This document shows, one piece after another, positions 30,242 through 45,440 of a stretch of 64,000 nucleotides of DNA (the stretch's first letter is position 1; the number at the start of each line of letters is the position of its first letter). Position numbers and translations under genes: made by a program. The stretch spans positions 4,777,001-4,841,000 of the forward strand of contig NZ_JARUBN010000001.1 in NCBI RefSeq assembly GCF_029626265.1. The letters are read 5' to 3'. Below the pieces are notes generated by a model that ran no database searches, had not been told where the DNA came from, and was given only the letters and a program-made list of their open reading frames with translations. Source of the stretch: Micromonospora sp. WMMD1102. GTDB taxonomy: Bacteria > Actinomycetota > Actinomycetes > Mycobacteriales > Micromonosporaceae.

Positions 30242-30307
30242 GCCGGGCCGCCACGACGGGCGGGGTACGGGCTGCTCTCGTTCATGGCTCTCCTTGCGCG
30301 GGCGGGG

Positions 30308-31336
30308 TCAGGGGCGCCGGGCCGGCTGGCAGCAACCGGTCGGGCAGGTGTCCCAGGCGGGCAGCGTACCCAGCCGGCGTCGCGTGGGCGTGTCGGCCGG
30401 GTTAAGCCGCTCCGTCACCAGATCCCGGACCATCGACACGAACCTCGGGTCGGTGCCCGGGGTACCGGCCCGGACGAAGTCGAGACCGAGCTGCTTGGCC
30501 GTACCCGCCGCCTCGGTGTCCAGGTCCCAGACCACTTCGAGGTGGTCGGAGACGAAGCCGATCGGGCTGACCACCACCGAGGTGACCCCGTCGGCCGCCA
30601 GGGTGCGCAGGTGGTCGTTGACGTCCGGCTCCAGCCACGGCACCTGCGGCGGGCCGGAGCGGCTCTGCCAGACCAGGTCGTACGGCAGGCCGGGAGCCGC
30701 CCGGTCGGCCACCAGTGCGGCGGTCTCGCGCAACTGTGCCTCGTACCGACCGCCCTGCGGGCCGGCGGTGGCGGCCATCGAGACCGGGATCGAGTGGGCG
30801 GTGAAGACCAGCCGGGTGCTGTCCCGCCGGGCCGGGTCGAGGGTGGCCAGCGCGCCCGCCACCGCGTCGGCGTGCGGGTCGACGAATCCGGGATGGTCCC
30901 AGTACTGCCGCAGCTTGTCGATCCGGGGCGCCCCCGGCCCCACCGCCGCGCGGGCGGTCGCGATGTCCTCCAGGTACTGCCGGCAGGAGGAGTAGCCGCC
31001 GTACGCGCTGGTGACGAAGCCGAGGGCGGAGGTGATCCCGTCGTCGCGGAGCTGGGCCACGGCGTCGGCGAGCATCGGGTGCCAGTTGCGGTTGCCCCAG
31101 TAGACCGGAAGGTCGAGCCCGTGCGCGGCGAAGTCGGCGCGGATCGCGGCGAGCAGCTCCCGGCACTGCTGGTTGATCGGCGACACGCCGCCGAAGTGCT
31201 GGTAGTGCTCGGCGACCTCGGCCAGCCGGTCCGGCGGCACGTTCCGCCCCCGGGTGACGTTGGCCAGGAACGGGAGGACGTCCTCGGGCCGTTCCGGCCC
31301 ACCGAACGAGATCAACACAACGGCGTCGTAGGACAT
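30308..31336 (-). CDS. hemH: Ferrochelatase (coproporphyrin III type)
   Basis: A 342-residue enzyme that inserts iron into coproporphyrin III in the actinobacterial haem pathway. Family blocks: AVVLISFGGPERPEDVLPFL, HYQHFGGVSPIN, VYWGNRNWHPML, SAYGGYSSCRQY, VFTAHSIP with the metal-binding His, and GFVSDHLEVVWDLD with the catalytic Glu. The C-terminus ends with DTCPTGCC, possibly part of an iron-sulfur ligand set. It follows inhA by 100 bp; the fabG-inhA-hemZ order is the same as in mycobacteria. Confidence 0.95.
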   Translation of the reverse strand: MSYDAVVLISFGGPERPEDVLPFLANVTRGRNVPPDRLAEVAEHYQHFGGVSPINQQCRELLAAIRADFAAHGLDLPVYWGNRNWHPMLADAVAQLRDDGITSALGFVTSAYGGYSSCRQYLEDIATARAAVGPGAPRIDKLRQYWDHPGFVDPHADAVAGALATLDPARRDSTRLVFTAHSIPVSMAATAGPQGGRYEAQLRETAALVADRAAPGLPYDLVWQSRSGPPQVPWLEPDVNDHLRTLAADGVTSVVVSPIGFVSDHLEVVWDLDTEAAGTAKQLGLDFVRAGTPGTDPRFVSMVRDLVTERLNPADTPTRRRLGTLPAWDTCPTGCCQPARRP

Positions 31337-31436
31337 GCCCCTATTGTTCCCGCCGCCGCCGGACCGCCGGGCCCGGCCCCGCCCACCGGCTGCGCCAGCC
31401 GGACGGGGCCGTGCTCGGCCGGACGGGGGGCCGTGC

Positions 31437-32222
31437 TCAGATGGCCGCGCCGAGCGCGTGGTAGCCGCCGTCGACGTGCACGATCTCACCCGTGGTGGCC
31501 GGGAACCAGTCGGAGAGCAGGGCCAGGCAGGCCCGGGCCGCCGGCTCCTGGTCGGTGAGCGACCAGCCCAGCGGGGCCCGCTCGCCCCAGGCCTCCTCGA
31601 AGCGTTCGAAGCCCGGGATCGACTTCGCGGCCATGGTGCGCAGCGGCCCGGCCGAGACCAGGTTGCTGCGGATGCCCTTCGCGCCGAGGTGCAACGCGAG
31701 GTAGCGGGAGGCGGACTCCAGCCCGGCCTTGGCCACGCCCATCCAGTCGTACACCGGCCAGGCCTTGGTGGCGTCGAAGGTGAGTCCGACCACGGCGCCG
31801 CCCGCGCTCATCAGCGGCAGCGCGGCCACCGCGAGCGACTTGTAGGAGTACGTCGAGACCTGCACCGCGGTCGCCACGTCCTCCCACGGCGCGTCCAGGA
31901 AGCCGCCGCCCAGACAGCTCGCCGGCGCGAAGCCGATCGAGTGGACCACGCCGTCCAGCCCGTCGACGTGCTCACGGACCCGGTCCGCCAGGCTGGCCAA
32001 CTGGTCGGCGTCGGTGACGTCCAGCTCGATCACCGGCGCGGGTTCGGGCAGCCGCTTGGCGATCCGCTCGACCAGCGACATCCGGCCGAAGCCGGTGAGC
32101 ACCACCGTCGCGCCGTTCTCCTGGGCGAGCTTCGCCACCGAGAACGCGATCGACTGGTCGGTGATGACCCCGGTGACGAGCAGCCGCTTGCCGGCCAGCA
32201 GTCCAGACACAAGATCCTCCAT
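31437..32222 (-). CDS. inhA: Enoyl-[acyl-carrier-protein] reductase (NADH), InhA/FabI
   Basis: A 261-residue short-chain reductase that completes the last step of each fatty-acid elongation cycle. The NADH site is KRLLVTGVITDQSIAFSVAKLAQ, and the catalytic pair is in YDWMGVAKAGLESASRYLA (Tyr then Lys six residues on). The start of the substrate loop, NLVSAGPLRTMAAKSIPGF, is also typical. It follows fabG by 88 bp and precedes hemH. Confidence 0.95.
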   Translation of the reverse strand: MEDLVSGLLAGKRLLVTGVITDQSIAFSVAKLAQENGATVVLTGFGRMSLVERIAKRLPEPAPVIELDVTDADQLASLADRVREHVDGLDGVVHSIGFAPASCLGGGFLDAPWEDVATAVQVSTYSYKSLAVAALPLMSAGGAVVGLTFDATKAWPVYDWMGVAKAGLESASRYLALHLGAKGIRSNLVSAGPLRTMAAKSIPGFERFEEAWGERAPLGWSLTDQEPAARACLALLSDWFPATTGEIVHVDGGYHALGAAI

Positions 32223-32310
32223 ACCCTCGTGGTCCCCCGCGTCCCGCGGCCGGTCCGGGTCCGTCCCGGCCGATCACGGCGCCTGGGCGATTGTGCCAGT
32301 CGGTGCCCGG

Positions 32311-33057
<747 letters not shown>

Positions 33058-33185
33058 CTAGGCGCTACCGCCGGGTAATCCGTAACCCGGGGTGCCGGCC
33101 GCGCTGCGTGCTACCGGGGTACTACGGGCCGGATAGCGCCACGGGGTGACGACGGTCGCCGCCCGGCGGCCGTACCCTCCCCCTG

Positions 33186-34508
33186 ATGGAGAACGGCACC
33201 GCCGCGGCACTGCGCCTCGGCCGCGACGACCTGCTCCGGCTGCTGGTCGGGGCGGACTACCCACCGGCCGTCCCGGACGGTCCGCCCGGCAGGTGGCGGC
33301 GCCGGATGCGGGCCGCCCGGCCGGTGGTGGCGCCGATCCTGGTCTTCGCCCTGGTCGGCATCACCATCGCCGGCATCCAGTACCTGACCGACACCCGGAA
33401 GCTGCCGGACCTGCTGGCGATCCTGCTCGGGGTCGGCGGGGTGCTGCCGGCGGTGCTGGCCCCGTTCCGCCCACTGCTCGGCTGGCGGATCGGCTACCCC
33501 ATGCTCTTCTTCGGCGTCCTCGACGCGCGGCCGGACGAGTCCTGGCCGTGGAGCCCGGTGCAGATCGTCGCCTTCCTCTTCGTGCTGCTCGTGCTGGCCG
33601 CCCGGACCAGCCTGGGGGTCTCCGCCTGGGCGGCGGTGCTCAGCGTGCTGCCGGCCTATCTGTGCGTGCCGTCGCAGGCGAACGCGCACGGGGTGCTGCT
33701 GCTCTTCCTGGCGATCCTGATCGTCGGTGACCAGGTGCGACGGCGCCGGCAGAGCCAGCAGGCCCTCGCCGAGGTCGCCGAACGCAGCGAGCTGGAGCAG
33801 GCCCGCCGGGCGGTGCTGGAGGAACGGACCCGGATCGCCCGGGAGATGCACGACGTGGTCGCGCACCACATGTCGATGATCGCGGTGCAGGCGGAGACCG
33901 CGCCGTACCGGCTGACCGGGCTGCCCGAGCCGGCCCGGGACGAGTTCACCGCGATCGCCGGGTCGGCCCGGGAGGCGCTGGCCGACATGCGCCGACTGCT
34001 CGGCGTGCTGCGCAGCGAGGCGGCCTCGGCACCGGAGACGGCGCCGCAGCCGGGGCTGGTCGACGTACCGGAGCTGGTCGAGGCGGCCCGCCGGGCCGGG
34101 ATGGCGGTGACGGTCGCCACCGGTCCGGAGCCGGAGCACCTCCGGACGGTGCCGGAGGCGGTCGGGCTGGCCGCGTACCGGATCGTCCAGGAGGCCCTGG
34201 CCAACGCGGCCCGGCACGCGCCCGGGACGGCCGTGCGGGTGTCGGTGGACGCGGACGACCGGGGGCTGGCCATCGGGATCTGGAACGACCCGCCCGGACC
34301 CGGCACCGGCCCGGCGGGCGACGCCGCCGGCCAGGCCGGGCACGGGCTGACCGGGATGCGGGAGCGGGCCCGGCTGCTCGGCGGCCGGCTGCGGGCCGGC
34401 CCCACCGACGACCACGGGTACGCGGTGACCGCCTACCTGCCCTACCGTCCGGAGGAGGAGACCCCGGCAGCGGACCGGTCCGAGCGGGACGGCAAGCTGG
34501 ACGGATGA
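33186..34508 (+). CDS. Sensor histidine kinase (HisKA_3, NarL-type)
   Basis: A 440-residue membrane kinase. About five transmembrane helices (residues 45-180) form the sensor, followed by a coiled linker, the dimerisation/phosphoacceptor helix ERTRIAREMHDVVAHHMSMIAVQAE, split around the phosphorylated His, and a C-terminal ATPase domain with the N box EALANAARHAPG and G box GHGLTGMRERARLLGG. It overlaps its response regulator gene by 4 bp. The stimulus is unknown. Confidence 0.92.
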   Translation: MENGTAAALRLGRDDLLRLLVGADYPPAVPDGPPGRWRRRMRAARPVVAPILVFALVGITIAGIQYLTDTRKLPDLLAILLGVGGVLPAVLAPFRPLLGWRIGYPMLFFGVLDARPDESWPWSPVQIVAFLFVLLVLAARTSLGVSAWAAVLSVLPAYLCVPSQANAHGVLLLFLAILIVGDQVRRRRQSQQALAEVAERSELEQARRAVLEERTRIAREMHDVVAHHMSMIAVQAETAPYRLTGLPEPARDEFTAIAGSAREALADMRRLLGVLRSEAASAPETAPQPGLVDVPELVEAARRAGMAVTVATGPEPEHLRTVPEAVGLAAYRIVQEALANAARHAPGTAVRVSVDADDRGLAIGIWNDPPGPGTGPAGDAAGQAGHGLTGMRERARLLGGRLRAGPTDDHGYAVTAYLPYRPEEETPAADRSERDGKLDG

Positions 34509-35170
34509 TCCGGGTACTCGTGGCGGACGACCAGGCGATGGTCCGGCAGGGGTTCGGAGCACTGCTGGCGGCCCAGCCCGACCTGCTGGTGGTCGGCGAC
34601 GCGGCGAACGGCGCCGAGGCGGTCACCGCCGCCCGGCGACTCGACCCGGACGTGGTGCTGATGGACATCCGGATGCCGGTGCTGGACGGCCTGGCCGCGA
34701 CCCGGCAGCTCCTCGGCGGCCGACCGGAGGCCGACCGGCCCCGGGTGCTCGTGCTGACCACCTTCGACCTGGACGACTACGTCTACGAGGCGCTGCGGGC
34801 CGGCGCCAGCGGCTTCCTGCTCAAGGACGCCCCGGCCGCCGACCTGGTGCACGCGGTCCGGGTGGTGGCGGCCGGTGAGGCGCTGCTCGCCCCGACGGTG
34901 ACCCGCCGGCTGATCGCCGAGTTCGCCGCCCGGCCCGGCCGGGACCGGCCCCGCCCGGTCAGTCTGGCCGGGCTCACCCCCCGGGAGACCGAAGTGCTCC
35001 GGCTGATCGCCCGGGGCCGCTCGAACGGCGAGATCGCCGCCGAGCTGGTGGTCGCCGAGCAGACCGTGAAGACCCACGTCGGGCGGATTCTGAACAAGCT
35101 CGACCTGCGCGACCGGGCCCAGGCGGTGGTGGTCGCGTACGAGTCCGGCTTGGTCACCGCCGGGGACTAG
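34505..35170 (+). CDS. LuxR/NarL family response regulator
   Basis: A 221-residue regulator. The receiver domain has the phosphoacceptor Asp in DVVLMDIRMPVLDG, preceded by VADDQAMVRQGF and followed by VLTTFDLDDY and the Lys in LLKDAP. The C-terminal LuxR helix-turn-helix reads LTPRETEVLRLIARGRSNGEIAAEL with AEQTVKTHVGRIL. ATG 34505 overlaps the kinase stop. It partners that kinase; target genes are unknown but the hydrolase-acyltransferase pair downstream is a candidate. Confidence 0.94.
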   Translation: MIRVLVADDQAMVRQGFGALLAAQPDLLVVGDAANGAEAVTAARRLDPDVVLMDIRMPVLDGLAATRQLLGGRPEADRPRVLVLTTFDLDDYVYEALRAGASGFLLKDAPAADLVHAVRVVAAGEALLAPTVTRRLIAEFAARPGRDRPRPVSLAGLTPRETEVLRLIARGRSNGEIAAELVVAEQTVKTHVGRILNKLDLRDRAQAVVVAYESGLVTAGD

Positions 35171-35328
35171 GAGCCGGTCCGCGGGCTGAAGCACCGTCGG
35201 TCGCTCGTCCTCCGGTAGCGCTCGGATAGTCCCCTGGTACTCCGGGGGAAGCCGTCCCACGGCGTGACGCGCCGGCCCCCTTCCGGAACGCATTCTCGGC
35301 TCGGAGAAGCGACCGGAGGGAGAACGGC

Positions 35329-36252
35329 ATGCGGTGGCGACCGACGGTACGGACAGGAGTGGCCGGACTGCTCGCGCTGGGGCTGATGGTGCCGCCACCG
35401 GCCCGGGCCGCCGAGGCGGTGTCCCCGGCCGGGTTCGTGGCGGCGTACCCGACGGTGGCGGCGGCGATGCGCTCGGCCGGCGGCCCGTACGCCGACTGGG
35501 TCGCCGCCGGCCGGTCCTTCCTCGCCTTCGACCCGCACGGCGACGGCCTGGCCGTGGAGGTGCTCGGCGACCTCGGCAGCGCCGACCGGATCGCGGTGGT
35601 CGTGCCCGGGGTGGACAGCACGCTGCGGGACTTCGACCGCGGTCTGGGCGGGGTACGCCGACGCGCCCCGGCCGTCCAGGCCCGCGTCCTGCACGACGAG
35701 ATCCGCGCCCTCCGGCCCGACGCCCGGGTGGCGGTGCTGGCCTGGCTCGGCTACGACACGCCGGACGGGCTGGGCCGGGCGGCGGCCCGCACGGAGCACG
35801 CCCGCGCCGGCGCGGCCGCTCTGGTCGAGCTGACCCGGACGCTGGCCCGGCACCGGCCCGACGCGACGGTGACGCTGGTCGGGCACAGCTACGGCGCGCT
35901 GGTGCTCGGGCTGGCCGCGGCCGAGCTGCCGCCGCAGGTCACCGACCTGGTGACGCTGGCCGGGATCGGGACGGGCGTGGACCGGGCGGCCGAGTTGGGC
36001 ACCGGTGCCCGGGTCTGGGCCGCCGAGGCGCCGGACGACTGGATCCGCCGGCTGCCGCCGGTGCGGGTGTTCGGCTTCGGGCACGGCGTCCGGCCGGCCA
36101 GCCCCGGGTTCGGCGCCCGGCCGCTGCCGGTGGCGGGGGTGACCGGGCACGACGGATACCTGGTGCCGGGCAGCACGACACTGCGCGCGACCGCCCTGGT
36201 CACGCTCGGCGCGACCGGGCGGGTCGACGAGACGGCGGTGAGCGGCCGATGA
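35329..36252 (+). CDS. Exported alpha/beta hydrolase (DUF1023-like)
   Basis: A 307-residue protein with a signal peptide (MRWRPTVRTGVAGLLALGL, cleavage likely after ARAAEA). The nucleophile elbow GHSYG is at about residue 184. Earlier blocks IAVVVPGVDSTLRDFDRG and AVLAWLGYDTPDGLG match the DUF1023 alpha/beta hydrolases. It should be a secreted or surface esterase/lipase of unknown substrate. GGAGGG precedes the ATG, and its stop overlaps the acyltransferase start by 4 bp, so the two are co-expressed. Confidence 0.85.
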   Translation: MRWRPTVRTGVAGLLALGLMVPPPARAAEAVSPAGFVAAYPTVAAAMRSAGGPYADWVAAGRSFLAFDPHGDGLAVEVLGDLGSADRIAVVVPGVDSTLRDFDRGLGGVRRRAPAVQARVLHDEIRALRPDARVAVLAWLGYDTPDGLGRAAARTEHARAGAAALVELTRTLARHRPDATVTLVGHSYGALVLGLAAAELPPQVTDLVTLAGIGTGVDRAAELGTGARVWAAEAPDDWIRRLPPVRVFGFGHGVRPASPGFGARPLPVAGVTGHDGYLVPGSTTLRATALVTLGATGRVDETAVSGR

Positions 36253-37481
36253 GCCTGCTGGACCGACGACAGACCGACGGCGCGGCGGTGCCGCCGGGGC
36301 GGAGCACGCCGACGCCGTCCCGGCTGCCTGCCCGCCCGGACGGCGCGGGGCGGGACCGGGGCGTCGACGGGCTGCGGGCGTACGCGATCGGCGGGGTGGT
36401 GCTCGGGCACTGGCTGGTCACCGCCCTGGTGCTCGGTGCCGACGGGGCGCTGCGCACCGCCAGCCCGCTGGCCGCGATGCCGGCGTTGGCACCGGCGACC
36501 TGGCTGTTCCAGACGCTCGGGCTCTTCTTCTTCGTCAGCGGGTACGCCTCGGCCGGGTCGCTGCGCTCGGCCGCCGCCCGGGGACTCGACCCGGCCGGAT
36601 GGCTGGGCCGGCGGCTGGGCAAATTGGGACGACCGGTGTCGCTGCTGCTCGGCGGCTGGCTGGCGGTGCTGGCCGTGGCCGCCCTGCTCGGCACTCCGGC
36701 AGGGACCCTGCGCACCGCCGCCACGCTGGTGGTCAGTCCACTGTGGTTCCTGCTGCCGCTGGTGGCGTTGATCGCGGCGACCGGACCGCTGTCCCGGGCC
36801 CTGGACCGGTACGGGCCGGTCCGGCTGGCCGTACCCGCAGTGGTGTTGGTCACGCTGAGCGATCTGGTCGGGCGGGTCGACGGGGGCTGGCCGGTGCCGC
36901 TGCCCGGGGACGGGGTGTGGCGGGTGCCGGTGGCGGTGCTGGCCGGCTGGCTGCTGCCGTACCTGCTCGGGATGGCCCTCGCCGACGGCCGGCTCGGCGG
37001 CCGGCGGGTCGCGGTCGGGCTGCTGCTCGGCGGTGCCGCCGGGATGGCGGTGCTTGGCTGGGCCGGCTATCCGGTGAGCGCGGTCGGGGTCCCCGGGGAC
37101 GGGATGTCCAATCTCGACCCGCCGTCGCTCTTCGCGGTCTGCCTGGCGCTGGCCCAGATCGGGGTGGCGCTGCTGGTCCGGCCGGCACTCGGCCGCCTGC
37201 TGGCCCGGCCGGGCCGGTGGGCGCCGGTGGACCGGCTCAACAGGGTGGCGATGGGCGTCTACCTGTGGCACCAGAGCACCCTGCTCGGGGTGACCGCCCT
37301 GGTCGCGCTCCTGGCCCGGCTGGCCGGCGCGGACGCCGTACCCGGACTGCACACCGCACCGGACGGAGCCGGCTGGGTCGCCGCCCGGCTGGCCTGGCTG
37401 CCGCTGCTGGTCCTGGTGCTGGCGGTGCTGGTGGGACGGACCGGCCGCGACCGACCGGCGAGGCGGCAGCACGGACGGTGA
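36249..37481 (+). CDS. Acyltransferase 3 family membrane protein
   Basis: A 410-residue polytopic protein. The signature VDGLRAYAIGGVVLGHWLVT is at residues about 38-57, then LGLFFFVSGYASAGSL, and a late YLWHQSTLLG. It resembles the protein at 12236-13588 and probably acylates an envelope component. The ATG at 36249 overlaps the hydrolase stop (ATGA); the same frame is open upstream through the hydrolase gene but that is not coding. A strong terminator hairpin follows at 37527-37569. Confidence 0.88.
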   Translation: MSLLDRRQTDGAAVPPGRSTPTPSRLPARPDGAGRDRGVDGLRAYAIGGVVLGHWLVTALVLGADGALRTASPLAAMPALAPATWLFQTLGLFFFVSGYASAGSLRSAAARGLDPAGWLGRRLGKLGRPVSLLLGGWLAVLAVAALLGTPAGTLRTAATLVVSPLWFLLPLVALIAATGPLSRALDRYGPVRLAVPAVVLVTLSDLVGRVDGGWPVPLPGDGVWRVPVAVLAGWLLPYLLGMALADGRLGGRRVAVGLLLGGAAGMAVLGWAGYPVSAVGVPGDGMSNLDPPSLFAVCLALAQIGVALLVRPALGRLLARPGRWAPVDRLNRVAMGVYLWHQSTLLGVTALVALLARLAGADAVPGLHTAPDGAGWVAARLAWLPLLVLVLAVLVGRTGRDRPARRQHGR

Positions 37482-37526
37482 CCGACGGAGCGTCTTGGCG
37501 GACCATCCCCGGTCGGGGAGCCGACA

Positions 37527-37569
37527 CCGGGGGACCCGGATGGCCGACTGCGGCCGCCGGGTCCCCCGG
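37527..37569 (+). terminator. Terminator after the acyltransferase gene
   Basis: A 13-bp perfect stem, CCGGGGGACCCGG at 37527-37539 and its complement at 37557-37569, with a 17-nt loop. It lies 46 bp after the stop codon and separates the operon from the structured leader that follows. Confidence 0.7.
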
Positions 37570-37608
37570 GTGTACGATTACTCGTGTTCCAGGTCCGGCC
37601 GACAAGAC

Positions 37609-37641
37609 GGAGGTGATCGCTGTGCGAGATAGCGATCCTCC
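37609..37641 (+). promoter_or_regulatory. Hairpin that sequesters a ribosome-binding site
   Basis: GGAGG (37609-37613) pairs with CCTCC (37637-37641), and ATCGCT (37616-37621) with AGCGAT (37631-37636), leaving a TG bulge and a 9-nt loop. The GGAGG is the ribosome-binding site of the 17-codon ORF, whose GTG start (37622-37624) is in the loop. Translation would need this hairpin to open. A further 8-bp hairpin (GGTCAGTC 37661-37668 with 37694-37701) spans the end of that ORF. Confidence 0.6.
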
Positions 37642-37675
37642 CAGTCGTGGCCGGGTCCTTGGTCAGTCCGCCTGA
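37622..37675 (+). CDS. Seventeen-codon leader ORF
   Basis: GTG start 8 nt after GGAGG; the peptide is MRDSDPPSRGRVLGQSA. The early D-x-D-P-P stretch is of the acidic/proline kind that slows or destabilises ribosomes in known leader peptides such as that of mgtA. Its ribosome-binding site and start lie in a hairpin, and its stop lies in the strand region of the next hairpin. It looks like a regulatory leader for the small ORF at 37905. I know of no described homolog. Confidence 0.4.
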   Translation: MRDSDPPSRGRVLGQSA

Positions 37676-37904
37676 GCCGTGACGTTTCCCGCCGACTGAC
37701 CCAGTTCCGCTCCACACCGCATCCCGGTCCCGCCCCGGCAGTCGCCGGTGCGCCGAGCCGGCTGTGCGAATCCGCTGGCTGTCACCGAGCCGAGGCGTGT
37801 GGAGCTTTCCGGTCACGACTTCGTGTGCGCGTCCACTGATCCCCGAGACGTCCCCGCCGCACGCCGGCCCGGCACGTCTCCAGTCGCCACCCGGAGGCAC
37901 AATC

Positions 37905-37991
37905 ATGCAGCGTTACGTCGCCCCGCTGGGCTTCACCCTCGCCGCCGCCTGGGTCGTGGTGGTCTTCATGCTGGTCCGCGCGACCCCGTGA
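37905..37991 (+). CDS. 28-residue single-helix membrane peptide
   Basis: A short ORF with a strong ribosome-binding site (CGGAGG, 7 nt before the ATG). The peptide starts MQRYVAPLGF, continues with one hydrophobic helix (TLAAAWVVVVFMLV) and ends RATP, giving a small inner-membrane protein with a short polar tail. It sits alone at the end of a 300-nt structured leader and before a convergent gene. A GAGACGT/ACGTCTC hairpin (37845-37880) lies just upstream, and a 12-bp palindrome CGGAGATCTCCG (37992-38003) just after the stop. Function unknown; it could be a subunit of a larger membrane complex. Confidence 0.5.
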   Translation: MQRYVAPLGFTLAAAWVVVVFMLVRATP

Positions 37992-38103
37992 CGGAGATCT
38001 CCGCCAGACCGGCGCACCCGCCGTTCCGCCCATCCGCACGTGCCCGGCCGGGCCGTAACCGGCACCGACCGGGTACGTCCGCACAGCCGCCCACCATGGG
38101 CGC

Positions 38104-39054
38104 TCACACCAGGCGGGACGTCCAGAGCAGACTCAGGCCCGCCGCGCAGAGCGCGAAGAGCAGCGCGATCCCGGCGTACCACTGGGTGATCTCCCGGGCC
38201 TCGGTCCGGAACCCGATCGAGCTGCCCATGTCCTGGTAGACCTGCTTCAACTCGCTGACCGAGGCCGCCTCGTAGAAGTACCCCTGGGTCGTCTCGGCGA
38301 GTTCGGCCAGGGCCAGCCGGTCCACCGGTACCCGCTGTAGCTGGCCGCCGATGTCGACCGCGCCGGAGTCGGTGCCGAACGCGATCGTCGAGACCGGCAC
38401 GTTCGCCGCCTGCGCCGCCGCGCCGGCCTCCTCGATCGACCGCCCCGAGGTGCGGTAGCCGTCGGAGAGCAGCACGATCCGGGCCGGCGGGATGCCCTGG
38501 GCACCGTCCGCCGGCACCGAACGGATCGCCTCCAGGCAGGTGAAGACGGCCTCGCCGGTCGCGGTCGCCTCGGCCAGCACCAGGCCGTCGATGGCCTGCA
38601 CGACCGCCGGCCGATCCTTGCCGGGCGGCACCAGCACGTTCGCTGACTTGGCGAAGGCGACCAGCCCGAGGTTGTAGGTCGGCGGCAGCTCGTCGACGAA
38701 CTGCTTGGCCGCCTCCTGGGCCGCCTCCAGCCGGTTCGGCGCCACGTCGTCGGCCTCCATCGACAGCGACACGTCGATCGCCAGCATGATGGTGGCGCGC
38801 TCCAGCGGCTCCTTGGTGTCGATCGCCGGCCGGGCCATCCCGGTGGCCAGGATCAGCAGGCTGAGCAGGAAGACCCCGGCCGCGGCGTGTCGGCGCCAGC
38901 CGATCCCCTTCGGCACCAGGGTGCGCAGCAGTTCGACGTTCGTGAACCGCATCGCGTACGTGCGGCGGTGCATCTGCCGCCAGATGTACGCCCCGGCGAG
39001 CAGCAGTACCGGAAGTACCGCCAGCAGCCACCACGGTTGCAGAAAACGGATCAT
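38104..39054 (-). CDS. VWA domain membrane protein (BatA-like)
   Basis: A 316-residue protein with two N-terminal helices, a von Willebrand A domain (residues about 85-270) and one C-terminal helix. The MIDAS metal site is LAIDVSLSMEADD, with later VLLSDGYRTSG. Such proteins act with MoxR ATPases in envelope-related assembly or stress functions. It is the last gene of the moxR-DUF58-vwa operon and overlaps the DUF58 gene by 4 bp. Confidence 0.9.
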   Translation of the reverse strand: MIRFLQPWWLLAVLPVLLLAGAYIWRQMHRRTYAMRFTNVELLRTLVPKGIGWRRHAAAGVFLLSLLILATGMARPAIDTKEPLERATIMLAIDVSLSMEADDVAPNRLEAAQEAAKQFVDELPPTYNLGLVAFAKSANVLVPPGKDRPAVVQAIDGLVLAEATATGEAVFTCLEAIRSVPADGAQGIPPARIVLLSDGYRTSGRSIEEAGAAAQAANVPVSTIAFGTDSGAVDIGGQLQRVPVDRLALAELAETTQGYFYEAASVSELKQVYQDMGSSIGFRTEAREITQWYAGIALLFALCAAGLSLLWTSRLV

Positions 39055-40007
39055 CGTGTCGTCCCCCGGGTACGGGCGTGCCGCTGCGCTGCGACGAAGC
39101 GCACCATGTCCAGCAGCCAGTCGGAGTCGGTCCGCAGCCGCAGGTGCGCCGCTCCGGCGGCCCGCAGCTCGTGGGCGATGGCACCGCGCTGGGCGGCCGC
39201 CGCGGCGGCGTAACGTCGCCGCAGTTTCGGGTCGGCGGTCTGCACCTCGTGCAGTTCACCGGTTTCGGGGTCGACGACGGGCAGCACGCCGACGTCCGGC
39301 AGTTCCAGCTCGCGCGGGTCGACGACCTCGACGGCGAGCACCTCGTGCCGGACCCGGAGCTTGCGTACCGGCCGGCCCCACTGTGCCGGCGGGGCGAGGA
39401 AGTCGGAGATCACCACCGCCATGCCGCGCCGCCGGGGCGGGCGGTTGAGCGCGTCAACAAGCAGGCCGAGGTCGGTACGCCCGGGTCGGGTCGGCGTGCC
39501 GGCGATGGTCCGGAGCAATCCCTGCGCCTCCTTCCGCCCCGGCCGGGCCGGCAGCCGCAGCACCCCGGGCGGGGCGCCGGGCGAGGTCGTCCGGCCGTCC
39601 CGGGGTGGGCCGGTGCCGATCACCGCGCCGATCCGGTTGCCGCCGCGCACGGTCAGGTGGGTGACCGCCGCCGCCGCCGCGATCACGAGTTCCCGCTTGA
39701 GCCAGCGGCCGGTGCCGAAGTCGAGGCTGGCCGAGAGGTCCACCGCCAGCCAGGTCTCCAACTCCCGGTCGGCCACCGTACGCCGGACGTGCGGCACGGT
39801 CGTCCGGGCCGTCACCGGCCAGTCCATCCGGCGTACGTCGTCGCCGGGGCGGTATTCCCGGGACTCCCCCGCCTCGGTGCCCGGCCCCGGCAGCAGCCCG
39901 AGGTAGTCGCCCTGGAGCAGTCCGTCGAGTTTGCGGGTGACCAGCAGCTGCAACCGGGAGAGCACCGCCTCGGCCCGGGCCGGGCTGTTCTCGGTGGCCG
40001 GCATCAT
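39051..40007 (-). CDS. DUF58 domain-containing protein
   Basis: A 318-residue protein. The DUF58 signature is SREYRPGDDVRRMDWPVTART near residue 50, then ETWLAVDLSASLDFG in a VWA-like fold and VVISDFLAP. It starts at ATG 40007, overlapping the MoxR stop (ATGA); the frame is open upstream through moxR without being coding. It links the MoxR ATPase with the VWA protein. Confidence 0.9.
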   Translation of the reverse strand: MMPATENSPARAEAVLSRLQLLVTRKLDGLLQGDYLGLLPGPGTEAGESREYRPGDDVRRMDWPVTARTTVPHVRRTVADRELETWLAVDLSASLDFGTGRWLKRELVIAAAAAVTHLTVRGGNRIGAVIGTGPPRDGRTTSPGAPPGVLRLPARPGRKEAQGLLRTIAGTPTRPGRTDLGLLVDALNRPPRRRGMAVVISDFLAPPAQWGRPVRKLRVRHEVLAVEVVDPRELELPDVGVLPVVDPETGELHEVQTADPKLRRRYAAAAAAQRGAIAHELRAAGAAHLRLRTDSDWLLDMVRFVAAQRHARTRGTTR

Positions 40008-41143
40008 GCCTGCGGGTGCCCGGGCCACGCCGGGCCGGACGCCGGAATCCCGGACGCCGGGCCGAGCCCGGGACCGGGCGGCGGGGCCGAACTGGCGTTC
40101 TGCCGGGGCGCGACGGAGGGCAGCGGGATGGTGGACATCACCCGGTCGACGACGTGGTCGGCGGGGATGTTGTCGGCCAGCGCGTCGTAGCTGAGCACCA
40201 GCCGGTGCCGGAGGATGTCCGGGGCGATGTCCTGGACGTCCTGCGGCAGCGCGTAGTCCCGGCCGCGCATCAGGGCGAGCGCCCGGGTGGCCCGGACGAT
40301 GCCGAGCGAGGCGCGCGGGCTGGCACCGTACTGGATGAGCTGGGCGACGTCCGGCATCCCGTGTTCGGCCGGGGCACGGGTGGCCAGCACCAGGCGTACG
40401 GCGTAGTCGACCAGGGCGTTGTGCACGAACACCTGGTCGGCCTTCTGTTGCAGCCCCACGAGTTCGAGCGGGGTGAAGATCGAGGACGGCTCGGGGGCAC
40501 TGACCCCCATCCGGTAGACGATCTCGCGTTCCTCCGCGTCGGTGGGGTAGCCGACGATGATCTTCATCAGGAAGCGGTCCCGTTGCGCCTCGGGCAGCGG
40601 ATAGACGCCCTCCTGCTCGATCGGGTTCTGCGTCGCCATCACCAGGAACGGGTTCGGCACCCGGTGGGTCTGCCCGCCGATCGACACTTGCTGCTCGGAC
40701 ATCACCTCCAGCAGCGCCGACTGCACCTTGGCCGGTGCCCGGTTGATCTCGTCGGCGAGCAGGAAGTTCACGAAAACGGGGCCGAGTTCGACGTCGAACT
40801 TCTCGCTCGACTGCCGGTAGATCCGGGTGCCGACGATGTCGGCGGGGACCAGGTCCGGAGTGAACTGCACCCGGGCGAAGGTACCGCCGACGACCCGGGC
40901 CAAAGTCTCCACCGCGAGCGTCTTCGCCACCCCGGGCACCCCTTCGAGCAGGCAGTGCCCGCGGGCCAGCAGGGCGACGAACATCCGCTCCACCATCCGG
41001 TCCTGCCCGACGATGACCCGCTTGACCTCGAAGAGGGCGCGTTCGAGCAGGGTCGCGTCCTCGGCCGGGGTGCTGCCCAGGGTCGGGACGGCACCGCCGA
41101 CGTCGGGCGGGGTCGGGGTGTCGGGCGTCGTCGGCTGGGCCAC
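40004..41143 (-). CDS. MoxR family AAA ATPase
   Basis: A 379-residue AAA+ protein. Walker A is LLEGVPGVAKTLAVETLA, Walker B LLADEINRAPAKVQSALLE, sensor 1 FLVMATQNPIEQEG, and the second half has the helical lid with GASPRASLGIVRATRALA. MoxR ATPases act as chaperones that fit cofactors or subunits into VWA-containing complexes. It is the first gene of the operon; its upstream region is shared with the divergent gene at 41431. Confidence 0.93.
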   Translation of the reverse strand: MAQPTTPDTPTPPDVGGAVPTLGSTPAEDATLLERALFEVKRVIVGQDRMVERMFVALLARGHCLLEGVPGVAKTLAVETLARVVGGTFARVQFTPDLVPADIVGTRIYRQSSEKFDVELGPVFVNFLLADEINRAPAKVQSALLEVMSEQQVSIGGQTHRVPNPFLVMATQNPIEQEGVYPLPEAQRDRFLMKIIVGYPTDAEEREIVYRMGVSAPEPSSIFTPLELVGLQQKADQVFVHNALVDYAVRLVLATRAPAEHGMPDVAQLIQYGASPRASLGIVRATRALALMRGRDYALPQDVQDIAPDILRHRLVLSYDALADNIPADHVVDRVMSTIPLPSVAPRQNASSAPPPGPGLGPASGIPASGPAWPGHPQA

Positions 41144-41349
41144 CGGTCCTCCACAGCAGGTTCACGGATCAGTCGGGGGGTCGGCGCGGGCCGACGACCC
41201 CAAGCGTCGCACGTCCGGCTGAGAGGCGGCGAAGGAGAACCGGATTTGCGGTTTCATCCGGCGCGTCTGCGGCTGCGGGAGGTGCGCAATCCGGCAAACG
41301 GTCGAGGGTGGGTAGACATAGGGGGGTTTTCTCCGGGTACGATGCAGCG

Positions 41350-41393
41350 GATCGCCGGGCGGCTCCCCCCGTGGCTGCCCGGCGATCTCTTTT
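41350..41393 (+). other. Terminator-like hairpin with T-run upstream of the 41431 gene
   Basis: Arms 41350-41363 (GATCGCCGGGCGGC) and 41374-41387 pair with one mismatch and are followed by TCTTTT. On the plus strand there is no gene upstream, because moxR is divergent. It may be an attenuator in the leader of the gene at 41431 or the end of a short untranslated RNA beginning near 41320. Confidence 0.4.
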
Positions 41394-41430
41394 CTCCTGC
41401 TCCGTCCACCGGCGCCGTAGACTCGCCGCC

Positions 41431-41688
41431 GTGACTGACGTGTCCACAGCCGAAAGCAGCGCCCCACCCCCGGTCGACGACCAGGCCCGGATCTGTTCGG
41501 CGCGGGGCTGCCGGGCGGCGGCCGTCTGGGCGTTGCACTGGAACAATCCCCGGCTGCACACTCCGGAACGGCGCAAGACCTGGCTGGCCTGCGCCGAGCA
41601 CCGGCACACGCTCGGCGACTTCCTCGGCGCGCGCGGGTTCCTTCGGGAGGTAACACCCGCCGAGGGATCGCCTACGCTCGACACGTGA
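41431..41688 (+). CDS. Small conserved actinobacterial protein with Cys/His pattern
   Basis: An 85-residue protein. The core reads ICSARGCRAAAVWALHWNNP then LHTPERRKTWLACAEHRHTLGDFL. The three cysteines and two histidines suggest a small zinc-binding fold. Widely conserved in actinobacteria next to PH-domain membrane proteins; some databases carry an unsupported acetone carboxylase label. It starts at GTG 41431 without an obvious ribosome-binding site and overlaps the next gene by 4 bp. Confidence 0.75.
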   Translation: MTDVSTAESSAPPPVDDQARICSARGCRAAAVWALHWNNPRLHTPERRKTWLACAEHRHTLGDFLGARGFLREVTPAEGSPTLDT

Positions 41689-42290
41689 GCGAGCGAGGCG
41701 ACGAGCGGGACACGCACGGGCCGGCCGACCGGGGCGAGCCGGTGTCGACCGGCGAGGTGACGACCGGAGGGTCCGCGGCCGGGCATCCTCCGGCCGGACC
41801 GACAGATCCGCTGGAGCCGTGGCCGGAGACCGTGCGCTGGCAGCCGGTCTCGGCCGACCTGGTCAAGGTGGAGGCGCTGCGGCTCGGGATCGGGATGCTG
41901 GTCCTCGCCGCCGGCGCCGTGATCGGGCTGGCCCTCACCGGCCACTGGCTCTTCGGCCTCGCCCTCGGCCTGGTGGTCGCGCTCACCCTATGGCGGCTGG
42001 CGGTCATCGTCCGGGCCGTCCGGGCCTGGGGGTACGCCGAACGCGACAACGACCTGCTGGTCCGGCACGGCCTGCTGGTCCGGCGGCTGTCGATCGTGCC
42101 GTACGCCCGGATGCAGTTCGTCGACGTCACCGCCGGGCCGCTGGAGCGCGCCTTCGACCTGGCCACCGTGCAACTGCACACCGCCGCCGCCGCCAGCGAC
42201 GCGCGGGTGCCCGGCCTGCGCCCGGCCGAGGCGTCCCGGCTGCGTGACCGGCTCACCGCGCTCGGCGAGGACCGGGCGGAGGGCCTGTGA
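41685..42290 (+). CDS. PH-domain (bPH_2/DUF304) membrane protein, short
   Basis: A 201-residue protein. A polar Gly/Glu-rich N-terminus precedes two adjacent helices (LGIGMLVLAAGAVIGLALTGHW, split, and LALGLVVALTLW) and a bacterial PH domain containing LLVRHGLLVRRLSIVPYARMQFVDVTAGPLER. It overlaps its neighbours by 4 bp on each side, so the three genes are one coupled operon. In Bacillus the related YdbS/YdbT proteins influence resistance to envelope stress; the role here is unknown. Confidence 0.88.
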   Translation: MSERGDERDTHGPADRGEPVSTGEVTTGGSAAGHPPAGPTDPLEPWPETVRWQPVSADLVKVEALRLGIGMLVLAAGAVIGLALTGHWLFGLALGLVVALTLWRLAVIVRAVRAWGYAERDNDLLVRHGLLVRRLSIVPYARMQFVDVTAGPLERAFDLATVQLHTAAAASDARVPGLRPAEASRLRDRLTALGEDRAEGL

Positions 42291-43672
42291 CGGTCGAGGA
42301 GGTCGCCGAACCCCGCAAGCGACTGCATCCGCTGAGCCCGCTGCTGCACGGGGCGAAGTCGCTGGCGGTGATCGTCGCCGCGCTCTCCTGGTCGACGCTG
42401 TCCCGGGTCGGCCTAGGCGTCTTCACCCTGCTGGTGGTGGTGCTGCTGCTCGGTGCGCTGGCGCTGTCGGTGGTCAGTTGGTACAACACCGGCTACCACG
42501 TGGTGGGGCGGGAGCTGCGGATCCACGAGGGGCTGCTGTGGCGGCGTACCCGGGCGATCCCGTTGGAGCGGTTGCAGTCCGTGGAGGTGGTCCGGCCGCT
42601 GCTGGCCCAACTCAGCGGGCTCGCCGAGCTGCGCCTGGAGGTGGTCGGCGGCGGGAAGACGGAGGCGCCGCTGGCGTACGTCACGGTGGCCGACGCGGTG
42701 ACGCTGCGGGAACGACTGCTGGCGCTGGCCGGCCGGGCGCCCGGCACCGGGGCGGGCACGGCAGCTCCCGGCCGGCCCGGAGCGCCGGAGCCGGGGCGGC
42801 CCGTCCCGACCGGGGCACCAGGCGTCGGCGGGCTGGCCGGCGCCGTCGAGCCGCCGACCGGCCGGCCGCTGCACGCGGTGTCCAACCGCGACCTGCTGGT
42901 CAGCCAGCTGCTCACCCCACAGGCGTTCTTCCTGCCGTTCGGCCTCGCCTTCGTGCTGGTCCAGTTCTTCACCGAGGACTCCTGGTCGTTCATCGCGGTC
43001 GCCAGCACCCTCACCGCGATGGCCGGGGTGGTGCTCCAGCCGATCCGGCGGGTGCTCGACGACTGGAGTTTCCGGCTGGCCCGCGACGACGCCGCGCTGC
43101 GGGTCCGGCACGGGCTGCTGGAGACCCGGGCCCAGACCGTACCGCTGGACCGGCTCCAGGCGATCGGGGTCACCTGGCCGCTGCTCTGGCGGATGAAGGG
43201 CTGGCTGCGGATGCGACTGTCAGTGGCCGGCATCGCCGCCGGTGAGATCGACAACCGCAGTACCCCGGACCGGTTGCTGCCGGCCGGCGACCTGGCCACC
43301 GCTCAGATGATCATGTCGGAGGTGCTGCCCGGGGTGTCCATCACCGGCACCCTCACCCCGCCGCCGGCCCGAGCCCGCTGGGTGCACCCGCTGGCCCGTA
43401 CCGCGCTCGGCGCCGGGCTCTCCGCCCGGGTCTTCGCGGTCCGCTCCGGCCTGCTGACTCGGGAACTGCTTGTCGTGCCGTACGCCCGGATCCAGAGCGT
43501 CCGGGTGGTGCAGGGTCCGCTCCAGCGACGGCTGCGGCTGGCCACCGTCTACGCGGACACGGCCGGCGGGCCGGCCGCAGCCGCCCGGGACCGGGACCTG
43601 CACGAGGCGTGGGCCTTGGCGGCGGAGTTGACCGCCCGGGCCCGGTCCGCCCGGCTCAGCGCCCCGCGCTGA
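42287..43672 (+). CDS. PH-domain (bPH_2/DUF304) membrane protein, long
   Basis: A 461-residue YdbT-like protein with repeated pairs of helices and three PH-like domains. Each shows the pattern L-R-GLL-RR--IPL-RLQSV: LRIHEGLLWRRTRAIPLERLQSVEVV, split at its centre, LRVRHGLLETRAQTVPLDRLQAI and FAVRSGLLTRELLVVPYARIQSVRV. A Pro/Gly-rich linker (residues about 148-200) joins the first two. It forms an operon with the short PH protein. Its last 17 bp overlap the convergent PAP2 gene. Confidence 0.88.
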   Translation: MTVEEVAEPRKRLHPLSPLLHGAKSLAVIVAALSWSTLSRVGLGVFTLLVVVLLLGALALSVVSWYNTGYHVVGRELRIHEGLLWRRTRAIPLERLQSVEVVRPLLAQLSGLAELRLEVVGGGKTEAPLAYVTVADAVTLRERLLALAGRAPGTGAGTAAPGRPGAPEPGRPVPTGAPGVGGLAGAVEPPTGRPLHAVSNRDLLVSQLLTPQAFFLPFGLAFVLVQFFTEDSWSFIAVASTLTAMAGVVLQPIRRVLDDWSFRLARDDAALRVRHGLLETRAQTVPLDRLQAIGVTWPLLWRMKGWLRMRLSVAGIAAGEIDNRSTPDRLLPAGDLATAQMIMSEVLPGVSITGTLTPPPARARWVHPLARTALGAGLSARVFAVRSGLLTRELLVVPYARIQSVRVVQGPLQRRLRLATVYADTAGGPAAAARDRDLHEAWALAAELTARARSARLSAPR

Positions 43673-44717
43673 CCGACCGCTGCGGCGCCGGCTCCGGCGC
43701 CTCCGGTCCCACCGGCGGCTCGGGGTCGGCACCCGTCATGGCTTCCGACACGCTCCCGACGGGCTGACGGCGGGCCTTGCGCGCCGCCCACCAGCGCTCG
43801 GCGAGCCCGACGGCCAGGAACGTCAACCCGACGTACGCCCAGCCGACAAGTACGTCGATCACGTAGTGCTCGCCCGCGTAGACCAGGGTGAAGGTCATCG
43901 CCAGCGGATAGCAGAGCAGCAGCGGCCACCAGCGTCGCCGGGTCGCGCCGAGGAAGAAGACCACCACGAAGAGTGCCCAGGCGGTGTGCAGCGACGGCAT
44001 CGCGGCGACCGGGTTGGAGGCGATCTGGCCGGCGTTGAGCAGGTTGCCGGCGCCGTGCATGCCGAACTCCCGCCAGCCCCGGGTGGAGATCCGGGCGACC
44101 TCCTCCAGCATCCCGTAGTGGGCGGCCCACCAGGGCGGCGCGGCCGGGTAGACGAAGTAGGTGACCAGACCGCTGGCGCAGAGGAAGCCCCAGCGCCGCA
44201 TGAACGCCGCCCAGCGGGGTCGGGAGCGCAGCCAGAGCACCACCGCGGCGGCCAGGGTGACCACGAAGTGCGAGAAGTAGACCCAGCTCACCCCGACGTC
44301 CCACCAGTGGATGCCGTCCGGGTCGTAGAGGTGCTGTTGCAGCCAGACCGTCGGCACCTGGCCGTCCATCGCCCAGCCGAACATCCAGCGGTCGGCGGCG
44401 ATCAGCTCGTAGGCGTGCGGTGTCGCCCCGTTGTCCGCGAACCCCCGGGAGAGGTTGTAGAGGGCGAGGAGCACGACCACCGGAAGCCAGTCCCGGGCGA
44501 AGCCCAGGTGGGTGCGCCAGGGCCGGTCACTGCGCCAGGCGATGGTGGCGGCCCAGAGCCAGGCGAAGGCGTACAGCGGGTCGGTGGGCAGGCCGATCAG
44601 CAGCCAGCCGGCGACGAAGGCCACCGTCCAGATCGACATGGCGACGATCCGGCGGTGCCGGCCCTCGGGCGCGGCCGGCGGGGGCGTGGGCGGGGTGGCG
44701 GGAGCGGTAACGAGCAT
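43656..44717 (-). CDS. PAP2-superfamily membrane phosphatase/phosphotransferase
   Basis: A 353-residue protein with about eight helices. The PAP2 catalytic motifs are present: the C2 motif PVAAMPSLHTAWALF and the C3 motif YAGEHYVIDVLVGW. The layout fits the PAP2_3 group, which includes inositol phospholipid-type synthases. It probably acts on membrane lipid phosphates. The ATG at 44717 gives the expected short cytoplasmic N-terminus. It is convergent with the PH-domain gene and divergent from the PadR gene. Confidence 0.88.
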   Translation of the reverse strand: MLVTAPATPPTPPPAAPEGRHRRIVAMSIWTVAFVAGWLLIGLPTDPLYAFAWLWAATIAWRSDRPWRTHLGFARDWLPVVVLLALYNLSRGFADNGATPHAYELIAADRWMFGWAMDGQVPTVWLQQHLYDPDGIHWWDVGVSWVYFSHFVVTLAAAVVLWLRSRPRWAAFMRRWGFLCASGLVTYFVYPAAPPWWAAHYGMLEEVARISTRGWREFGMHGAGNLLNAGQIASNPVAAMPSLHTAWALFVVVFFLGATRRRWWPLLLCYPLAMTFTLVYAGEHYVIDVLVGWAYVGLTFLAVGLAERWWAARKARRQPVGSVSEAMTGADPEPPVGPEAPEPAPQRSVSAGR

Positions 44718-44802
44718 CGCCGTCCAGGTTAACGGCGCGGGTACGACGAACGCCCGGAGGGACACCACCGCAGGGCCGCCGTACGGCGCGGCAGGTACCG
44801 CA

Positions 44803-44841
44803 CTAGCAACTCGCTTGCTAGCCTAGTAACTCGGTTGCTAG
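44803..44841. promoter_or_regulatory. Double palindromic operator of the PadR gene
   Basis: Two 19-bp palindromes 20 bp apart: CTAGCAACTCGCTTGCTAG (44803-44821) and CTAGTAACTCGGTTGCTAG (44823-44841). The second ends 11 bp before the ATG at 44853. Two copies on the same face of the helix directly upstream of a PadR gene strongly suggest autorepression. Confidence 0.75.
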
Positions 44842-44852
44842 TCTTCCCGGCC

Positions 44853-45440
44853 ATGTCGGTATCCCGAATCCTGCTCGGCCTGCTCGAACCGCGGTCCCAG
44901 CACGGCTACGTGCTGCGCCGCCGCTACGACGAGTGGTTCGGCACCAGCCGTCCACTGAAGTCCGCCCAGGTCTACGCCACCCTCGGCCGGCTGGACCGGG
45001 ACGGGCTGATCGACCTCGCCGGAGTGGCCAGCGGGGTCGGCCCGGACCGCCGGGTGTACGCCATCACCGAGGCGGGCGTCGGCGAACTCGACCGCTGGCT
45101 CGACGAGCCGGAGGTGCCGGAGGTGACCGCCAGCCGGCGGGTGCTCTTCGCCAAGGTGCTCATCGCGCTCTCCAGCGGCCGGCCGGCCGAGCCGATGCTC
45201 GACCGGCAGCGCCAGGCGCACCTGGCCCGGATGCGCGAGTTGCGCGCCCAGCGGCAGGCCGGCGACCTGCTGACCCAGCTCGACGCCGACTTCGAGATGT
45301 ACCACCTCGACGCCGATCTCAAGTGGATCGACGGTGCCGTCGCCCGGCTCGCCCGGCTGGCCGCGCTGGTAGCCCACGTCGACGACACGGACGTCGACGA
45401 GGTGGAGGTCGACCACGCGGAGAAGGAGACCGACCGATGA
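44853..45440 (+). CDS. PadR family transcriptional regulator
   Basis: A 195-residue regulator. The winged helix has LGLLEPRSQHGYVLRRRYDEWF and LKSAQVYATLGRLDRDGLI, with YAITEAGVGELDRWL in the wing, followed by a C-terminal helical dimerisation domain typical of the Vir_act_alpha_C type. ATG 44853 starts directly after the double operator. Its stop overlaps the ATG of the ABC ATPase gene (ATGA), so it is expected to repress an ABC export system in the absence of inducer. Confidence 0.92.
   Translation: MSVSRILLGLLEPRSQHGYVLRRRYDEWFGTSRPLKSAQVYATLGRLDRDGLIDLAGVASGVGPDRRVYAITEAGVGELDRWLDEPEVPEVTASRRVLFAKVLIALSSGRPAEPMLDRQRQAHLARMRELRAQRQAGDLLTQLDADFEMYHLDADLKWIDGAVARLARLAALVAHVDDTDVDEVEVDHAEKETDR

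Follow-up and report, generated by a model that had tools for sequence, protein, structure and literature searches.

Organization of the leader region

In Micromonospora sp. WMMD1102, a very short ORF, several hairpins and a second, 28-codon ORF follow one another on the forward strand, and the question raised by this arrangement is whether they form one regulatory element and, if so, what it controls. Within the window (the whole 64,000-nucleotide stretch of DNA that was analyzed), ORF1, the hairpin P1, two more hairpins and the 28-codon ORF2 could each be read directly in the sequence. ORF1 (37622..37675, + strand) has 17 codons, from the GTG at 37622 to the TGA at 37673–37675, as originally predicted. 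Its start codon and its extended Shine-Dalgarno (SD) sequence, GGAGGTGATC (37609..37618, +), a 10-nt perfect complement of the 16S rRNA 3' end, are enclosed by P1 (37609..37641, +) in the predicted fold. ORF2 (37905..37991, +), which has a GGAGG upstream, encodes the 28-residue peptide MQRYVAPLGFTLAAAWVVVVFMLVRATP with a single membrane helix, also in agreement with the original prediction.

A predicted promoter with the -10-like box TACGAT (37573..37578, +) places the transcript start at about 37585. Of 61 distinct elements, 48 (a raw count) have a TANNRT box in the 75 nt preceding the SD, mostly at about 35 or about 59 nt from it. In seven elements (L009, L079, L082, L127, L128, L130, and L134), the -10-like box is farther from the SD (about 59 nt upstream, instead of 35), and G+C-rich repeats between the two could form an extra 5' hairpin. 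A strong 13-bp inverted repeat (37527–37569, CCGGGGGACCCGG/CCGGGTCCCCCGG), previously taken for a terminator, is real, but no T run follows it; it overlaps the expected -35 position of the leader promoter and is partly kept in some relatives of the same genus. No intrinsic or T-rich terminator was seen in the leader.

The surroundings of the element were compared in 20 regions (19 fetched, plus the window). A convergent VWA-domain ORF lies 251–489 bases downstream in 14 of them, and in at least eight a divergent ORF resembling fabG or inhA lies no more than 2 kb upstream; both counts are lower bounds from rough ORF picking, with names assigned by eye. In the window, about 4–5 kb of other genes (33186–37481), by eye sensor kinase-like, LuxR-type regulator, hydrolase-like and acyltransferase-like ORFs, lie between the fabG-like gene (32311–33015) and the element. 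Mycobacterium presumably has a similar slot at Rv1479–Rv1485.

The leader ORF and hairpin P1

In the 61 distinct elements, ORF1 starts with GTG (54) or ATG (7) and ends with TGA (51), TAA (6) or TAG (4), the stop always falling at codons 12–20 (61/61). With one element taken per genus, an in-frame stop at these codons was present in 32/32 genera against 3.9 expected from shuffled tails, a comparison that ignores shared ancestry, and the corresponding figures for the +1 and +2 frames were 7/32 and 1/32. A three-base insertion in the P1 loop of one genome (G011) preserves the ORF1 frame. What characterizes uORF leaders, a short ORF with a conserved SD, start and nearby in-frame stop, was thus found in all 32 genera. 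Past codon 8 the residues are variable and partly follow the pairing of the long-range stem P2 described below. Because these residues vary, selection on ORF1, as far as the alignment tells, seems to act on its translation rather than on its peptide.

P1 is the most conserved piece of the element. The GGAGG and the GTG had been placed inside one hairpin at 37609–37641, which is borne out by its MFE of -17.4 kcal/mol (z -4.9), a stability reached by none of 200 shuffles. The fold of P1 plus the next 19 bases (37609–37660) is ordinary (z -0.5, 57 of 200 shuffles equally stable), and the 331-base leader gives a z of -2.65 (1/100 shuffles). Over 58 sequences, 98.8% of the P1 cells are paired, and the hairpin is so nearly invariant that covariation says little about it. 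Its 5' half, GGAGGUGAUC, is the 10-nt perfect complement of the 16S tail and its 3' half pairs with it; P1 hardly varies because the first is bound to the 16S tail and the second is bound to the first. The basis for the match to the 16S rRNA 3' end, TGGATCACCTCCTTTCT, occurs at two places in the genome of the strain itself, and the SD 10-mer is not unique, with 109 occurrences in the genome.

These constraints bear on the D-x-D-P-P start of the ORF1 peptide, which had been likened to ribosome-destabilizing leader peptides. In the ORF1 frame, the 3' half of P1 reads (S)-D-P-P, and since the codons of Asp5-Pro6 (GAT CCT) base-pair with the extended SD, RNA pairing alone can explain the invariance of these two residues. 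Codon 3, the residue left freer by P1 pairing, is Asp in 50 of the 61 elements, Asn in 7, Ser in 3 (10/61 for the latter two) and Arg in one, where an in-frame insertion shifts the register. At codon 7, 51 elements have Pro, 9 have Ser and one has Leu. Judged from these sequences, the D-x-D-P-P start is mostly forced by complementarity to the extended ribosome-binding site, and the idea of a destabilizing peptide is weakened by both the codon 3 variants and the SD pairing of Asp5-Pro6.

A long-range stem overlapping the leader ORF

The main conserved structure of the element is P2, a stem that was missed in the original prediction. It joins a 5' strand within ORF1 codons 8–12 (37643..37655, +), recovered in the leader MFE, in a duplex search and in the alignment, to a 3' strand (37808..37820, +) identified by double-sided changes in the alignment. 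The MFE structure of the window's leader contains P2 as a 13-bp stem, and ORF1 extends to, or past, the end of the P2 5' strand. With 58 rows aligned by sequence, 89.3% of the P2 cells pair and nine of the 14 aligned pairs have changed on both sides; GUGG/CCAC, for instance, is replaced by GCAG/CUGC, and GCCG by GCUG, again with partners that match. Taking P1 and P2 jointly, 10 pairs are doubly changed, compared with 4.7 in shuffles and 2–6 when the partner was slid, and the doubly changed cells number 34, compared with 9.5 and 4–14, respectively. Pairing cells amount to 94.0% versus 92.2% in the shuffles and 35–52% after sliding.

For each of 58 elements, the strongest duplex formed by the P2 5' strand was ranked against those obtained with shuffled downstream sequence; it came within the top 5 of 100 in 47 elements and beat every shuffle in 28. 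It ranked 7–8 in L019, L021, and L140 and was no better than shuffles in eight elements (L018, L026, L027, L133, L138, L143, L152, and L153); in L018, weak in this search, 12 of the 14 aligned P2 pairs still form. Both P1 and P2 are thus conserved structures that overlap ORF1, another trait of uORF leaders. Judged by its ORF conservation and this overlapping structure, the element belongs to the uORF leaders in the wide sense, and the expectation in the original prediction that both ORFs and the stem pairing would be conserved in relatives was borne out.

The two further hairpins are of narrower occurrence. The 8-bp stem GGTCAGTC/GACTGACC (37661..37701, +; strands 37661–37668 and 37694–37701) lies inside the P2 loop and is part of the leader MFE in the window; it has by-eye counterparts in the window's genus and in some other genera and is absent from genera with short inserts. 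The hairpin at 37845..37880 (+), located between P2 and ORF2 in the leader fold, has by-eye counterparts at the genus level and is absent from short-leader genera. Both had been described before and are present in the sequence, but neither is family-wide. In L068, L080, L008, L009, and L010, the ORF1 stop is directly followed by GCCACGACT or a similar sequence, which repeats the P2 3' strand and could, in some genera, be a rival partner of the P2 5' strand. As a general feature, a local second partner past the ORF1 stop was rejected: it was found at rank 5 or better in 8 of 54 elements and at rank 0 in none, and is lineage-limited. The segment TTCGTGTGCGCG (37820–37831 in the window), directly 3' of P2, is common to many elements. 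Searches against Rfam 15 gave no match in 30000–45000, and in 37500–38010 eight weak hits (best E 0.1), all under the gathering scores.

The ORF2 peptide and its co-inheritance with the leader

The ORF2 peptide was aligned from the 31 genera in which a pattern search found the ORF. It is mostly 26–29 residues long (two pattern-found peptides have 24) and consists of an N-terminal Arg, a Tyr or Phe, and then a single hydrophobic helix, with an invariant Pro and an invariant Trp. Identity at the three codon positions is 0.745, 0.826, and 0.628, respectively, which shows constraint at the protein level. Searches of 21 members against Pfam and NCBIfam gave no significant match (best E 0.04 and 0.047, one member each), and no relative was found among PDB sequences. 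The peptide likely inserts in the membrane; that it serves there as a stress- or translation-tuned regulator is a guess.

The 81-base core of the leader (37600–37680) matched 256 of 300 Micromonosporaceae genomes, in 32 of 44 genera (E ≤ 0.001). It is normally present in one copy per genome, and a second match appeared only in G022, G119, and G169, where it was weak (E 5e-5 or above). Searching with the DNA of the whole region returned long matches within the same genus; farther out, the matches shrank to two islands, one in the P1 region and one where ORF2 begins. Among the matches listed (at least 80), the named records include Micromonospora, Actinoplanes, Salinispora, and Plantactinospora, and the element is also carried by Catellatospora, Virgisporangium, Hamadaea, and a Dactylosporangium MAG. 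The search for a mobile origin gave no plasmid or phage hit.

Leader and peptide are inherited together. Within a sample of 61 genomes, the 37 from the family carried either both (27) or neither (10), and none only one of them; the peptide matched 27 of the 61 genomes at E ≤ 3.7e-4, every one in the family. Downstream of all 61 distinct elements a peptide ORF was found, 58 by pattern and three by eye (L141, L142, and L151); L141 keeps the core, but its peptide frame runs on past the usual end. One genome (G154) has a further peptide match, which is a contig-end fragment. The neighboring VWA-domain gene was recovered in 11 of the 12 genera that are devoid of the element (G036 gave no VWA match), and the slot beside it, readable in 10 of them, held neither element nor peptide; the contig of G031 ends 135 bases past the VWA gene, so its slot is left out of this count.

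Outside the family, neither a pattern search nor an RNA model recovered the element. The P1 pattern, with up to three mismatches, matched three of 394 genomes of the class, each of them in the family. The RNA model (R1), trained on 46 of the 61 elements, scored 54–85 bits on five family elements; 45 genomes outside the family passed E ≤ 0.01, on rough E-values, with a best score of 29.6 bits, and 20 weak loci that were inspected showed no relative of the peptide. The peptide profile, run on 200 genomes of the order, hit the family 24 times; its two other hits were weak (E 0.025 and 0.030) and lay within long frames. Both ORFs, P1, P2, and the co-inheritance of leader and peptide are thus features of the genome sequences themselves.

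Proposed mechanism and alternatives

In the reading that we favor, and consider rather probable, the element acts in cis, as a leader-ORF RNA switch on one short transcript, to control a small membrane protein. The leader probably uses ORF1 translation to control the membrane peptide. A translation-controlled leader before a small membrane protein had been proposed originally, and this part of the proposal stands on the anatomy and on the conserved ORFs and pairing, while the likeness to ion-transporter leaders that came with it was not supported. That ORF1 reaches the end of the P2 5' strand and that C is in excess between the two ORFs suggest the following course, in which we infer the single transcript, the displacement of P2 by translation, the direction of control, the Rho step, and the signal.

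P1 would hide a very strong ribosome-binding site together with the ORF1 start, and so would gate ribosome entry. A ribosome translating ORF1 would run through the P2 5' strand and open P2, because ORF1 ends at or just past this strand. If no ribosome has loaded, or if it is stopped at the start or leaves ORF1 prematurely, P2 would form and the C-rich leader would become a closed domain. The state with P2 formed would most likely be ON for the 28-residue peptide, and full translation of ORF1 would be OFF, as it would expose C-rich RNA to Rho. In the window's genus, an extra OFF route would run through base pairing between the ORF2 ribosome-binding site and the freed P2 3' strand. The signal would probably be the translation status of the cell, for example, ribosome inhibition or initiation capacity.

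According to the available part of one report, Rho loading sites are marked by high C:G and YC content (PMC12121999). Between ORF1 and ORF2, C exceeds G in 58/58 elements (mean 43% vs. 29%), and upstream the values are 34% for C and 36% for G. Compared with windows of its own region, the C excess in the 150 bases after P1 was in the top 5% in 10 of 19 regions and ordinary (0.26–0.48) in four.

The extra route was evaluated from predicted folds. When the P2 5' strand of the window was kept unpaired, the predicted openness of the ORF2 ribosome site went from 0.23 to 0.02, and it fell in 6/6 elements of the same genus; over 58 elements, 21 showed a fall and 10 a rise, and 27 stayed within 0.05. 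An alternative structure that reaches the ORF2 ribosome site is therefore supported in the window's genus, not across the family. Pairing between the P2 3' strand and the ORF2 site, rejected as a general feature, was among the best 5 of 100 in 10 of 58 elements (about 3.5 expected for random ranks) and within the best 7 in 13 (about 4.6 expected); the good ranks include 4/6 elements of the window's genus, the others being scattered across genera. By these modeled duplexes, the pairing is a mild excess, not general, and at best a lineage add-on. Two other candidates for reaching the ORF2 ribosome site were discarded: the P2 5' strand (within the best 5 of 100 shuffles in 0/58 elements) and the P1 3' strand (6/58).

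If the element worked like MgtL or mgtQ, the nascent Asp-x-Asp-Pro-Pro would cause ribosomes to leave the mRNA ahead of P2, at low Mg2+ for example; P2 would then form and the peptide would be made. The geometry fits, as the acidic and Pro codons 3–7 lie just ahead of P2 in a C-rich leader, and precedents are described in the accessible parts of two reports: in MgtL, ribosomes that drop off at EPDP bring about a refolding of the mRNA that conceals a Rho terminator (PMC11282234), and an 8-codon ORF with Asp2 and Glu5 controls mgtB (PMC8092293). However, codon 3 departs from Asp to Asn or Ser in 10/61 elements and codon 7 from Pro to Ser or Leu in 10/61, Asp5-Pro6 is dictated by SD pairing, and the downstream product belongs to no known family. 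In the place where an Mg2+ transporter gene would stand, the next ORF is the 28-residue peptide, followed by the convergent VWA-domain ORF. We therefore consider this explanation unlikely, and on present evidence the element is not a member of the ribosome-destabilizing class.

Still less probable are two other explanations, to which we give about equal weight. One is a type I toxin-like mRNA, in which a 28-residue membrane toxin would be silenced by the leader structure and an antisense RNA. Type I toxin-antitoxin systems typically, although not by strict definition, have a patchy, often multi-copy or mobile distribution, and tisB also has an upstream ORF. The small, hydrophobic peptide and its structured mRNA agree with such a system, as does the long leader, which recalls the 5' structure and distant standby site of the tisB mRNA in what is accessible of the report (PMC7708055), but the presence in 256/300 family genomes with normally one match, and the lack of phage or plasmid matches, are neither patchy nor mobile. 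The strong conservation of the peptide, the convergent VWA ORF downstream in 14/20 regions, and the failure to find by eye a conserved block outside P1, P2, and ORF2 that could hold an antisense promoter also argue against it. The other explanation is that the P1–P2 RNA itself, as a small RNA or protein-binding RNA, is the product and that ORF1 and the peptide are bystanders; P1 being the most conserved piece and the strong long-range structure would suit it. It does not agree with an ORF1 frame and stop that are kept despite differing sequences and an in-frame insertion, nor with an RNA and a peptide that are never apart in the 37 family genomes compared.

Within the favored leader-ORF switch, P1 might even be a direct sensor of ribosome supply that feeds the level of the membrane peptide through ORF1 and P2, a doubtful extension. 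The P1 strand GAUC-CUCC would imitate the 16S tail and hold the 10-nt SD shut, so that free 30S subunits and the RNA's own mock anti-SD would compete for one site. ORF1 would turn 30S loading into opening of P2 and thereby set the level of a family-specific membrane peptide. If true, such a circuit would tie membrane composition to translation capacity or to ribosome-targeting antibiotics.

Significance and comparison with known systems

Two groups with no match in Rfam, Pfam or NCBIfam are added here, a class of RNA leaders and a family of small membrane proteins; both are widespread in one large bacterial family, the Micromonosporaceae, which are known for antibiotic producers. The anatomy of the element is simple: one start codon and one 13-bp stem with natural compensatory variants. 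It also carries a warning for leader-peptide calls made on amino acids alone, since an apparent peptide motif such as D-x-D-P-P can be forced by extended-SD complementarity. In the top-ranked results from the open-access literature, with subscription papers outside the search, we found nothing on the element or the peptide.

Among the systems described, the accessible portions of the corresponding reports point to several relatives in arrangement. In toiL-topAI of Escherichia coli, a short leader ORF is likewise overlapped by structured RNA, the position of the ribosome on it decides the fold, and Rho is involved downstream (PMC12121999). There, sequences of the leader ORF pair with the ribosome-binding site of the target (PMC12121999), whereas here the conserved stem ends 40–90 nt upstream of ORF2 in most elements and the target is a lone membrane peptide; the likeness drawn here is one of arrangement. 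With mgtQ and MgtL, the element shares a short ORF, early acidic and Pro codons and alternative RNA folds (PMC8092293, PMC11282234), and with mgtQ also a strong SD (PMC8092293). It differs from both in the nonconserved acidic residue at codon 3, in an output that is not a known transporter and in the phylum. The downstream product, which matches no known family, speaks against the likeness to ion-transporter leaders.

Closer in taxonomy are the actinobacterial leader ORFs, again as far as the portions at hand describe them. The ilvB-II uORF motif of Corynebacterium resembles the present leader in its way of working (PMC10272879). There, a peptide with many residues of the amino acids being sensed governs biosynthesis (PMC10272879), whereas ORF1 has no apparent amino acid enrichment and its target is a small membrane protein. 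The antibiotic-sensing uORFs of the Streptomyces ARE5 genes and the attenuation of wblC also involve leader ORFs; in the ARE5 case, it has been proposed that a ribosome stopped on the start codon alters the fold (PMC12421871). Both are described with terminator and anti-terminator folds (PMC12421871), whereas in the present leader, in which P2 would be moved by the translating ribosome, no T-rich terminator was seen.
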